Of a stretch of 38,490 bases of DNA, positions 34,486-38,490 are shown one piece after another. Location of the stretch: positions 1 to 38,490 of the forward strand of contig CADBML010000210.1 in the NCBI GenBank assembly GCA_902795825.1, read 5' to 3'. Numbering within the stretch: the first letter of the stretch is position 1; every line of letters begins with the position of its first letter. The translations under genes and the position numbers were made by a program. The notes beneath the pieces were generated by a model. It was not told the origin of the DNA, ran no database searches, and saw only the letters and a list, made by a program, of their open reading frames with translations. Origin of the DNA: an uncultured Bacteroidales bacterium (GTDB lineage Bacteria > Bacteroidota > Bacteroidia > Bacteroidales > Muribaculaceae).

Positions 34486-35667
34486 TTACTCAATCAACTT
34501 ATAAAACTTTTCAATTTCTTCAGTATTTCCTTTTTTTTCAGTGCGTTGGTAGGCGGAAATCGCTTCGCGCTTTTCGGGATGAAGAATCAAATCCTCAATA
34601 GCATCCGCGACGGCAGTGGCATCAATCGGAACAACTATTCCATTCTTCCCCTGAACCATCTGACTCCAAACGCCGACATATTCAGTCGTAACTACAGGAC
34701 AGTTAAGCAATCGTGCTTCAGCGATAGACAATCCAAAGCCCTCACGACGCGAAGTCTGGACATACAAGTCGCACATTCTGTAATATGGATATGGATTGGG
34801 CACAGAACCAAGCAAATGAACACAATTCAGAAGATTGTGCTCAATTATATACTTTTCCATCTCGCTTCTGTATGTTCCTTCCCCAAGAATGTACCAATCA
34901 AATATAAGATTCCGTTTTTTTAATATCGTACACACATTAAGCAATATGTCATATCCTTTAGTGTCTTCTATCAATCGGGCGACCGTCAATATTTTAATTT
35001 TTGAGTTTGATAATTTGTTTTGTGTGGGCAAAATAGACAATTTTCGTACAAAGTCGGGGTAAACGATATCTTTAACCAATATAAATTTATCAATTAATTC
35101 AGGGAATAACCTTTTGAAATGGTTTGTGGCTTCATCTGAGACGATATTAATGGAATCAAGTTTTTCATAATAAGAACGGTTAAATAAGAGGGCTTCTCCA
35201 GACAAATTCCACACACAATTTACCCACCCAATCTTTTTAGAGGCTTTTACCTTATCTACGACATAAAATGTCGGCAGACCTTGAGAGTAGGCGATAGCGA
35301 CATCGTAATGCTTTTCTGTCTCGGAATAGCATCGAGAGCATTTTTGCCAATAGGTCATCGCTTTTTCAGCGTGGTTTAATTTGTTTGTGTTAATCGAGTA
35401 AGAATAAGCTAAACGGGCTGACATTTTTTTTAGATCAAATGAACAAAATGATGCAATAAGGTTTTTCCTTAAGAAACGATTGTAAGGCAATTCAGGCAAG
35501 ATGTTTACTTTTGGATGTAGAAATTGCTGAAATGCACCGCCATACGCGAAAAGTTGTAAATCTACATCATAGTGATCGTAATCTATCAACGATAAGAAAG
35601 TGACAAGACTTTTTTCTCCGCCACCGATCCCCAACGAATCCATCACAAAAAACAACTGTTTTTTCAT
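34486..35667 (-). CDS. GT4-family glycosyltransferase
   Basis: This 393-aa GT-B glycosyltransferase has an N-terminal acceptor part with MDSLGIGGGEKSLVTFLSLI, the family pattern in which a Gly-rich loop faces the donor. A donor domain follows with KILTVARLIEDTKGYDILLN, ILGEGTYRSEMEKYI and the E-x7-E motif SRREGFGLSIAEARLLNCPV. It probably adds a hexose in assembly of the surface glycan; donor and linkage are unknown. The start overlaps the preceding gene by 4 nt (ATGA at 35664-35667). Its base composition is markedly richer in A and T than the gmd unit, suggesting a separate origin from the genes to its left. Confidence 0.88.
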   Translation of the reverse strand: MKKQLFFVMDSLGIGGGEKSLVTFLSLIDYDHYDVDLQLFAYGGAFQQFLHPKVNILPELPYNRFLRKNLIASFCSFDLKKMSARLAYSYSINTNKLNHAEKAMTYWQKCSRCYSETEKHYDVAIAYSQGLPTFYVVDKVKASKKIGWVNCVWNLSGEALLFNRSYYEKLDSINIVSDEATNHFKRLFPELIDKFILVKDIVYPDFVRKLSILPTQNKLSNSKIKILTVARLIEDTKGYDILLNVCTILKKRNLIFDWYILGEGTYRSEMEKYIIEHNLLNCVHLLGSVPNPYPYYRMCDLYVQTSRREGFGLSIAEARLLNCPVVTTEYVGVWSQMVQGKNGIVVPIDATAVADAIEDLILHPEKREAISAYQRTEKKGNTEEIEKFYKLIE

Positions 35668-36719
35668 TTTGTGAAAAGATGCTTTATTTTTGACAAATAT
35701 TTATATATAATTATTTTCATTTTTAATAGGTGAATGTTTTTTAATCTAAACATTTTCTCTCTAATGTTTTCTTTATTCAAAATTGAATCCTGCCAAAGAG
35801 ATTTCCCTTCAAATGAAAAAAATAGCGAGACTATTTCTTTAGTTTCTTTAAAGGAATCGGAGATGTGAATAGAATGTTTTCCAACACCATAAATCTCACG
35901 TATAATATCTTTTAGTAATAAAATCTTATCTAATACATCATTTGTTTGAAATAGAACCAAGTCTAATGCTTTCCGTTTCCCCCAGACCCAACTGGTTTTA
36001 TTGTCAACATCTCGATCAGAATTGGTCCATTCTTGGTGTTTATATATCTCATAGACAATCTTATTCAATGCTTTGTAATTGACATCTATTCTTCGATAAA
36101 AAAAACAATTGTAACAATTTTTAATTTTGCCAATGCCTAATTCTGGTGATTTTATTCTTGGCCATAATAAGGCGCAATAAACATTGTCAATCCAATTAAG
36201 CGATTCGAGTAAAATTTTATCACAAATTGACCATGACAGGCCCCTGTTTATAAAATATGCGTAATCAAAATCGCATTTGGCGCTAATGCTATTAAATCTA
36301 ATGATGGTTAATGTCTTATTATAGTATGCCAATGTTGCGACCCTATGAGCCCCATCCAAAATAACACCATTTAAATCAACTGGTATTAATGAAATATTGT
36401 CATTAAAATCAGTTTCCTTAAATGCATCTATCATACCGTTAAAAGTATCAATAAAAGAATCAATGCCAATTTTATCATCACGCCCAGGTTCTTTCAAATC
36501 AGGATTAAACGAAATGATATGCTGGACATAAACATTTTTTGCATCTTCAAAATTATTGTGTCTATTATGAATATAGTATAATTTTGCAAATAAATCAAAT
36601 CGTTTATAATTAAGCAACTCTCTAGCTTTTATCTTAAGAATTGAATAATCCTCAATTGAATCTAACCCGTATATATGGATTGTGTGTGGCTGTAGCTTGC
36701 TTAAAAAAGAGTTTTGCAT
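35664..36719 (-). CDS. Unknown protein with a ParB/Srx-like DG-x-HR motif (351 aa)
   Basis: I do not recognise a named family. Residues 110-143 (SLIPVDLNGVILDGAHRVAT, then LAYYNKTLTIIRF) have the DG-x-HR-x-A pattern of ParB/sulfiredoxin-fold domains, which in free-serine kinases such as SerK and SbnI forms the nucleotide and phosphate pocket. The N-terminal 100 residues (KARELLNYKRFDLFAKLYYI, then VYVQHIISFNPDLKEPGR) are helical. The C-terminal half has CYNCFF, SWVWGKRKALDL and REIYGVGKHSIHISDSFKET, which also look conserved. There is no signal peptide, and only a basic amphipathic end. It overlaps the nucleotidyltransferase-like gene by 19 nt and the next glycosyltransferase by 4 nt, so it should act in the same pathway. 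A kinase-like role on a glycan substituent is inferred. Confidence 0.6.
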   Translation of the reverse strand: MQNSFLSKLQPHTIHIYGLDSIEDYSILKIKARELLNYKRFDLFAKLYYIHNRHNNFEDAKNVYVQHIISFNPDLKEPGRDDKIGIDSFIDTFNGMIDAFKETDFNDNISLIPVDLNGVILDGAHRVATLAYYNKTLTIIRFNSISAKCDFDYAYFINRGLSWSICDKILLESLNWIDNVYCALLWPRIKSPELGIGKIKNCYNCFFYRRIDVNYKALNKIVYEIYKHQEWTNSDRDVDNKTSWVWGKRKALDLVLFQTNDVLDKILLLKDIIREIYGVGKHSIHISDSFKETKEIVSLFFSFEGKSLWQDSILNKENIREKMFRLKNIHLLKMKIIIYKYLSKIKHLFTK

Positions 36720-37399
36720 TTAATACAACGTTTAAAATGAACAAGTAATTGGATGATATTAATTTTTGACCAATAGATTATGCGATATAACTTTTTATTA
36801 CCAGCAATAAGTTTTTTATTAATGTTATTTGTATAAAGTGGAACATGTTTGTCAGACGGATATGTATAGACATATTTGTTCTCAATCATATATGACTCCA
36901 TTAATTTTATTAATTCTTTTCTATCATACGACTTGATTGATACATCGTTTATTTTTGCCAACAATGACAATATACGCTTATAATCATCTGATAATTGAGG
37001 TTTTTGAATAATAGAATGATAAATTAATGAATAAAAAAGATGTCTGTCATTGGGCCGAAAAAAAAGAGACGATTCATTTTTTTTTGACAACAACATGTCT
37101 TTTTGCCATTTTTCGCAATAATACCCATCTCCCACCGTTCTGATGTCAATGCTAATGTCACGCCCTGAGACATTTATTTTGGCATGGGTTTTATCCCACT
37201 TTTTATTGTTCCCTTTCCATGCAACACAATTTGAAACTTTTATAAACTCATCCCTGTCATCACATAAAATATCAATATCTGGGTGGTCGTCCAAAAGGAA
37301 AGATTCGCTATTGAAATTCGAAAAATTCCTTAAAACCAGATAATTAACATTACTCCGATTCAGCACGTCAAAAAAACATGTGATATTCTGAAAATCCAT
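36701..37399 (-). CDS. Nucleotidyltransferase-fold protein in the glycan locus (232 aa)
   Basis: The pattern LNRSNVNYLVLRNFSNF, then DDHPDIDILCDD (D41, D43), then SGRDISIDIRTVGDGYY (D85) looks like a Pol-beta-type nucleotidyltransferase. A shortened first motif is followed by an Asp-x-Asp pair and a third acidic strand. The usual GS signature is not obvious, so it could be a non-canonical or inactive member. The C-terminal half is helical and basic and lacks known domains. It is the likely first gene of an overlapping trio (with the DG-x-HR protein and GT4), with a plausible promoter at 37423-37455. Codons are strongly AT-rich. Role probably in adding or activating a non-sugar decoration, unproven. 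Confidence 0.6.
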   Translation of the reverse strand: MDFQNITCFFDVLNRSNVNYLVLRNFSNFNSESFLLDDHPDIDILCDDRDEFIKVSNCVAWKGNNKKWDKTHAKINVSGRDISIDIRTVGDGYYCEKWQKDMLLSKKNESSLFFRPNDRHLFYSLIYHSIIQKPQLSDDYKRILSLLAKINDVSIKSYDRKELIKLMESYMIENKYVYTYPSDKHVPLYTNNINKKLIAGNKKLYRIIYWSKINIIQLLVHFKRCIKCKTLF

Positions 37400-37511: not shown

Positions 37512-38490
37512 CTAATTGATGGAGACTGAGTCGATGCCAACGAACATCATTTGGTCGAATACGGAATAAGCAGCAAGAGAGTCAGTAGAGAAATCAGGAG
37601 ATGCCAATGCGGGTCTTATCACATAGTCGCGCCATTTGAAGATGCCTGCTATTGAGCGATGTACAATTATTTCAACAGGTGGATTGCTTTTCCTCGTAAT
37701 TATATGATAATTGCCCGGAACAGACTCAATTACTTGATTGGAGTCTGGCAAGCAATATATTGCCTTTGAAATAGGCGTTGAAAATTTTAATTGCTTATTT
37801 GAACCAAATTCATGGTTCAAGGTTTTTTGAAATGTTTGGATTATGTACCGGTCATGCTCACAGGTTAGTTCGTGTGGATTCATATTTGGCGGACTGTATG
37901 GGAAAATAAAGCTTCGAAAGAATCTTTGTATATAATCTTTCCCGTAAGGGAATTCATATAACACTTCTCCCGTTTTACTATTTACGTACAATTCCTTGAT
38001 TTGTTTATAAGAGTCTATTCGCTTATACATTGAGGACGCATATATTATCGACTGAAAAAGTACCACAAAAGATACCAAAACTAATGAGAAATATATTGTA
38101 TGTTTCTTTATTTGACCGCTCCAAATTGATATAATTAGTGCGAGCGAAAGCACCTCTGCCCCATAATATGCGCGACATATTGGTATTCGTAAGAGGAAGC
38201 AAAACAACAAACAACCTAACAAAGCGTCAATAAACAACGAGTGTTTATTATAGAACATTTTTAACGTAGTGCGATTGGATTTAATCGTAATCAATAAAAG
38301 CGCTATTAGCAAAAGCGTTGCTTTTATGGACAAAAACAATGTAAAAATAAAACTAAACGAAAAACCGATTTCATCAACTTTGTTTTGCGAACCAGGGCTA
38401 AGAACAATTAGGACAACACCAATTGCAAATCCAATGAGCATCGCATAGTCGTTTAGTGACAATCGCGTTATATTTCTGATGCCATAAATA
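37512..38490 (-). CDS. C-terminal part of a multispan membrane protein (DUF6056-like), cut by window end
   Basis: The minus-strand frame is open to the right window edge, so the true start lies outside; a TTG at 38462 is not a convincing start. The visible portion of about 325 aa has four or five membrane helices (NDYAMLIGFAIGVVLIVLSP, FSFIFTLFLSIKATLLLIAL, LFIDALLGCLLFCFLLRIPI, HTIYFSLVLVSFVVLFQSII). A soluble domain of about 170 residues (YKQIKELYVNSKTGEVLYEF) follows. The pattern, with LSPGSQNK after the first helix, fits the DUF6056/ArnT-like polytopic proteins that accompany glycan loci, often thought to be sugar or lipid transferases. The family name is tentative. It is AT-rich like its neighbours. 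Confidence 0.6.
   Translation of the reverse strand, partial: IYGIRNITRLSLNDYAMLIGFAIGVVLIVLSPGSQNKVDEIGFSFSFIFTLFLSIKATLLLIALLLITIKSNRTTLKMFYNKHSLFIDALLGCLLFCFLLRIPICRAYYGAEVLSLALIISIWSGQIKKHTIYFSLVLVSFVVLFQSIIYASSMYKRIDSYKQIKELYVNSKTGEVLYEFPYGKDYIQRFFRSFIFPYSPPNMNPHELTCEHDRYIIQTFQKTLNHEFGSNKQLKFSTPISKAIYCLPDSNQVIESVPGNYHIITRKSNPPVEIIVHRSIAGIFKWRDYVIRPALASPDFSTDSLAAYSVFDQMMFVGIDSVSIN

Follow-up and report, generated by a model that had tools for sequence, protein, structure and literature searches.

A conserved pair of nucleotidyltransferase-like and ParB/sulfiredoxin-NDPK-like proteins in a surface-glycan locus of Muribaculaceae

The window analysed here is a stretch of 38,490 nucleotides from an uncultured bacterium of the Muribaculaceae (contig CADBML010000210.1), and near its right end four genes follow one another on the reverse strand. 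The first encodes a DUF6056 membrane protein (37512..38489 (-); PF19528, 4.6e-09) and is truncated at the contig edge, which leaves the beginning of the locus out of view. It is followed by P1 (36701..37399 (-)), an ORF of 232 aa for a nucleotidyltransferase-like protein, by P2 (35664..36719 (-)), an ORF of 351 aa for a two-domain protein with a ParB/sulfiredoxin (Srx)-like and an NDPK-like part, and by a GT4 glycosyltransferase of 393 aa (34486..35667 (-); PF00534, 8.9e-28). By ORF coordinates, P1 and P2 overlap by 19 nt (36701-36719), and P2 and the GT4 gene by 4 nt (35664-35667). An earlier sequence-only reading of this DNA had reported the last three of these ORFs, both overlaps, the D41/D43/D85 pattern and the LDGAHRVA motif, and all of them were found as given there. 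It had also placed the genes in a glycan locus, which is confirmed by the flanks of the window. These are ordinary glycan genes, including GDP-mannose-dehydratase-like and GDP-fucose-synthase-like genes recognised by sequence, and a LegC-type aminotransferase, a WecA-like transferase and GT4s recognised by profile. GC-content between 35000 and 37000 is about 0.29-0.33, with the lowest value of 0.29 at 36-37 kb, versus about 0.44 further left, and this low local GC suggests horizontal import of the P1/P2 stretch.

P1 is probably a member of a diverged nucleotidyltransferase family, and the earlier reading had already called it nucleotidyltransferase-like. Profile searches with P1 gave no Pfam or NCBIfam match. 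The D-x-D with a third Asp that marks Pol-beta-type nucleotidyltransferases is present: D41 and D43, a putative metal-binding pair (37271..37279 (-)), stand inside 'HPDIDIL', and D85, the putative third catalytic Asp (37145..37147 (-)), stands inside 'SIDIR'. These three residues are invariant in 8/8 aligned P1 relatives at identities down to 24%. The Pol-beta-type G-[GS] motif before the D-x-D is absent from P1, which has 'LVLRNF' there instead; this motif appears solely in P2 relatives, within the cis C-terminal domain described below. PF14907 (NTP_transf_5), a family of uncharacterised nucleotidyltransferases, is matched by two of the eight P1 relatives (best 8.4e-4) and is not reached by P1 itself. 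A P1 profile aligned with NTP_transf_5 with the D-x-D in register, and scored 26.9 where the best of 150 shuffles scored 22.7, the NTP_transf_5 profile in this comparison being made of two usable sequences. The AF2 model of P1 is weak (pLDDT 41) and puts D85 within a predicted strand at residues 80-88. Foldseek matches of this weak model had E >= 0.3, and their list, which includes Rel, ANT(4'), PolX and a nucleotidyltransferase-like protein, may be taken as suggestive. A further candidate match to P1, in G149, was dropped: it sits within a glycosyltransferase-like ORF.

Profile searches with P2 likewise gave no Pfam or NCBIfam match, and PHROGs and PDB sequence searches yielded nothing useful. 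By sequence, P2 is not recognisably near a solved structure. Residues ~27-142 (36294..36641 (-)) are assigned to a ParB/sulfiredoxin-like domain from a Box-II-like LDGAHR, the order of predicted elements and BFVD matches. The LDGAHR box occupies residues 121-126 (36342..36359 (-)) within 'LDGAHRVA' at residues 121-128. It has the form of box II, G-x-[HR]-R with an invariant Arg, and G123, H125 and R126 are kept in 18/18 aligned P2 relatives, so the ParB/Srx-like box of the earlier reading stands. As in the ParB/sulfiredoxin superfamily, which includes SerK and SbnI, the box is flanked by two predicted strands on one side and a helix on the other, the element order of this half being helix-strand-strand-box-helix-strand in the AF2 prediction. 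Several viral ParB/Sulfiredoxin proteins are among its BFVD structural matches (prob ~0.15-0.9). A ParB_N profile aligned to P2 with the box in register, yet 10/300 and 6/200 shuffles scored equally high. P2 differs from the superfamily in giving no significant profile match and in its domain content, as no HTH, ParB-type DNA-binding or dimerisation domain was found in P2.

For the second half of P2 (residues ~178-302, 35814..36188 (-)), an NDPK-like nature was proposed before the structure result, from the likeness of 'KHSIHISD' to the 'NxIHGSD' of NDPK. The AF2 model of P2 (mean pLDDT 64.5, four input sequences) shows the NDPK element order b-a-b-a-a-b-a-b-a at residues 180-300, and in Foldseek searches of the PDB with this model nearly all of the top matches were NDPKs (prob 1.00, best TM ~0.64, 136 columns). 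P2 and NDPK align colinearly by profile, R274 falling on R105 and H285 (35865..35867 (-)) on the phospho-histidine H118. This alignment is statistically marginal, with scores of 22.3, 18.6 and 13.9 for P2 sets of 8, 14 and 17 sequences, and its register was unchanged throughout. At the positions taken from it, R274 and H285 are kept in 17/18 aligned P2 relatives, and the one exception, from Paracoccus (L024), has lost both. This half of P2 resembles NDPK (PF00334) in predicted fold and topology and in this His and Arg. However, K12 of NDPK is absent from P2 and its relatives ('KPD' is replaced by 'WPR/WPK/FPS'), N115 is not kept and is H or S instead, and neither P2 nor its C-terminal half gave a Pfam match to PF00334. 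Ordinary NDPK activity of P2 is unlikely because K12 is not kept. P2 is also unlike NDPK in that this part is fused to a ParB/Srx-like domain and encoded in a glycan locus.

P2 was found in 5/397 genomes of the window's family, distributed over three genera, and P1 lies directly upstream in all five. Outside the window, the adjacency therefore recurs in four other genomes and in two further genera. The earlier reading had treated the two genes as a unit and had named unrelated folds, or a lack of co-occurrence elsewhere, as grounds for giving that up; neither came true. Among the five pairs, P2 identity is 41-73% and neighbouring genes differ, and in four of them the order is a flippase-like gene, GT2, P1, P2 and a hexapeptide acyltransferase. 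Comparing the pairs gives saturated dS and a dN of 0.19-0.78, as expected under purifying selection. The five paired P2s form one clade (support 100), and hence the pairing reflects one origin that was kept and not five events. A scan of 16 further P2 loci found no P1-type gene nearby. In G866 (L078 7259-8585), the pair is followed by a GT4 gene that is split in two ORFs, possibly by a frameshift.

Distant relatives of P2, at 22-32% identity, came from phylum-wide and plasmid searches; a genome contig scan gave three more (a Bacteroidetes MAG, Smithella and Neobacillus), and phage contigs also yielded some. The resulting census is incomplete. The weak matches L006-L021 (E >= 3e-4, short, several with stops) were left out. 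Outside the window's clade, twelve of the 13 P2 homologues carry at their C-terminus a domain with the pattern 'GSxxLxLYGLRExxDLDYL...KxxRgExKDxxD', which by its motif appears to be nucleotidyltransferase-like. The thirteenth, the Paracoccus relative (L024 8902-9807), is truncated, has no C-terminal domain and may be degenerate. This domain is also missing from the five P2s of the window's family, in which P1 lies alongside as a separate gene. Homology between P1 and the cis domain was considered and found no profile support, and hence we speak of replacement in trans, not of fission. That P1 replaces the missing cis domain is what we infer from this one exchange, together with the independent joining of P1-type domains to kinase and NDPK-like domains elsewhere.

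Such joined forms were found among the P1 relatives. One protein (L028) combines a nucleotidyltransferase, a kinase and TPRs, and another (L029) combines a nucleotidyltransferase, an NDPK-like stretch and a kinase. In a phage relative (L037 3140-4543), the N-terminus is kinase-like and is joined to an NDPK-like stretch and a P1-type nucleotidyltransferase. The NDPK-like stretches of L029 and L037 read 'NGIHSSD' and 'YRIHATD'. The recurring theme is a kinase or nucleotide-binding domain with an NDPK-like domain and a nucleotidyltransferase, in glycosyltransferases or fused to them; members of NTP_transf_5 differ from P1-type domains in this company of kinase and NDPK-like domains. The neighbours of L037 3140-4543 are GT2-like genes and a terminase-like gene. 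L034 2268-10679 is a giant single ORF in which a P1-type domain occurs with a kinase and TPRs, and the giant single ORFs L025, L026 and L034 encode 2,100-2,800 aa.

Most P2 relatives lie inside glycan machinery or are fused to it. Those of Ilyobacter and Jannaschia lie within glycan gene clusters, giant proteins join P2 relatives with GT2, GT10-like or FkbM domains, phages carry P2 relatives as GT2 fusions, and FkbM methyltransferases adjoin several relatives. The best BFVD matches of P2 are giant-virus proteins, two of which are annotated 'Glycosyltransferase'. Related modules fused to sugar transferases thus exist in other bacteria and in phages, and apparently in giant viruses too. The ORFs L025 4957-12309 and L026 4579-10923 contain glycosyltransferases and other glycan domains beside the P2 relative. 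In phage L072, the genes that come after the module match PEP mutase (3.4e-73), halves of phosphonopyruvate decarboxylase, and AEP aminotransferase (5.1e-48), with all these matches under curated cut-offs; in L074, and partly in L073, the phosphonate set beside the module was judged by gene order. A near-complete PEP-to-2-aminoethylphosphonate gene set adjoins the P2 relative at L072 7233-11514 and L074 7224-11878, and the L074 cluster also holds a TagD/HldE-type cytidylyltransferase-like gene. No phosphonate genes were seen beside the window pair, and the set occurs in one phage group only. Their position beside the phage module fits a phospho-substituent role.

The reading that we prefer, tentatively, is that P1 and P2 are subunits of one phosphotransfer or nucleotide-transfer module, which takes part in surface-glycan assembly by making a phosphate-linked substituent or attaching it. 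Its likely role is to activate a phospho-substituent or to transfer it onto the glycan. The analysis shows the gene anatomy, the predicted domain make-up, the conserved active-site positions, the conserved pairing and the glycan context; every chemical step proposed below, and the substrate, we infer. A hydroxylated substituent would first be phosphorylated, and the ParB/sulfiredoxin-like domain of P2 is probably a nucleotide-binding site or a small-molecule kinase. The NDPK-like domain, which probably carries phosphate on H285, would then provide phosphate or add it, for instance through regeneration of nucleotide triphosphate. Finally, the group would be activated or transferred next to the glycosyltransferase. 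P1, as a nucleotidyltransferase of the Pol-beta superfamily, would probably transfer a nucleotidyl or phosphoryl group with D41/D43/D85 and two metals, and would stand in trans for the cis C-terminal nucleotidyltransferase-like domain in the window's clade. The overall logic proposed here is the same as in PntC- or LicC-type nucleotidyl activation of glycan phospho-substituents (PMC6697681), whereas the protein families differ.

A related but rather unlikely alternative is that P2 is a glycan kinase whose target is a hydroxyl group of a sugar, and that P1 is a LicD-like phosphotransferase that directly caps, or transfers a phosphodiester on, a lipid-linked glycan, with no free nucleotide-activated molecule. 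The fusion of P1 relatives to protein-kinase-like domains would agree with this, and the tails of P1 and P2, which are basic and partly amphipathic, would suit membrane work. FkbM methyltransferases beside several relatives also recall WbdD, in which a kinase and a methyltransferase perform O-antigen capping. However, such a scheme explains the NDPK-like domain poorly, no LicD profile match was obtained, and the surroundings of the window pair showed no FkbM gene. P2 might instead be mainly a regulatory nucleotide switch of the ParB-CTPase kind, acting on the neighbouring glycosyltransferase or on P1, in which case its NDPK-like domain would be catalytically silent. Proteins of the ParB-CTPase fold frequently serve as switches and accept a variety of NTPs (PMC12704722), and the NDPK K12 is lost in P2. 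This is improbable in our view, as H285 and R274 in 17/18 and GxHR in 18/18 persist across very divergent sequences, P2 is tightly paired with a nucleotidyltransferase, and a ParB-type DNA-binding or dimerisation domain was not found in it. Somewhat more improbable still is that P2 works like SerK/SbnI, with a small free amino acid or an alcohol as the molecule to be phosphorylated, and that P1 converts the product into its CDP- or UDP-activated form. The G-x-H-R box is in its favour, as is SerK, a ParB-annotated free-serine kinase (PMC5120207), but P2 is not recognisably near any solved structure by sequence, and the NDPK-like domain is ignored. The interpretation in the sequence-only reading, one protein phosphorylating a group and the other activating or transferring it, was right about the nucleotidyltransferase type of P1, the box, the pairing and the glycan setting, and it missed the NDPK-like domain, the kinase fusions and the cis C-terminal domain. 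That P1 and P2 are chance neighbours without joint function is already disfavoured and very improbable. In its favour, mosaic glycan loci are common and the stretch is low in GC and probably imported; against it, the 5/5 pairing spans three genera, 41-73% P2 identity and differing neighbours, and nearly all other P2 relatives have cis nucleotidyltransferase-like domains.

The P1-P2 pair is real and conserved and, as far as our limited literature check reached, undescribed, in agreement with the earlier statement that no system with this pair had been described. Full-text searches, with supplements and most subscription papers outside their scope, gave no description of the domain combination, and neither NDPK nor nucleotidyltransferase is among the fusions named in the main text of a 2025 survey of the ParB-CTPase fold (PMC12704722). 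A wider and more doubtful view is that these proteins represent an undescribed class of glycan-tailoring machine common to bacteria, phages and giant viruses. In such a class, a ParB/Srx- or protein-kinase-type domain, an NDPK-like phospho-histidine domain and a nucleotidyltransferase would cooperate in cis or in trans, and a phospho-histidine relay would equip surface glycans with phosphate- or phosphonate-linked groups.

Phosphate-linked decorations of glycans influence how hosts, phages and antibodies recognise them, and a large share of the responsible enzymes is unknown. In glycan loci, a recurrent three-part module that includes an NDPK-like domain would offer a testable route to such phosphate-linked groups, and would add a role to the ParB/sulfiredoxin fold. 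Moreover, several unannotated families, without a Pfam or NCBIfam match, would become named candidates in bacteria and phages.
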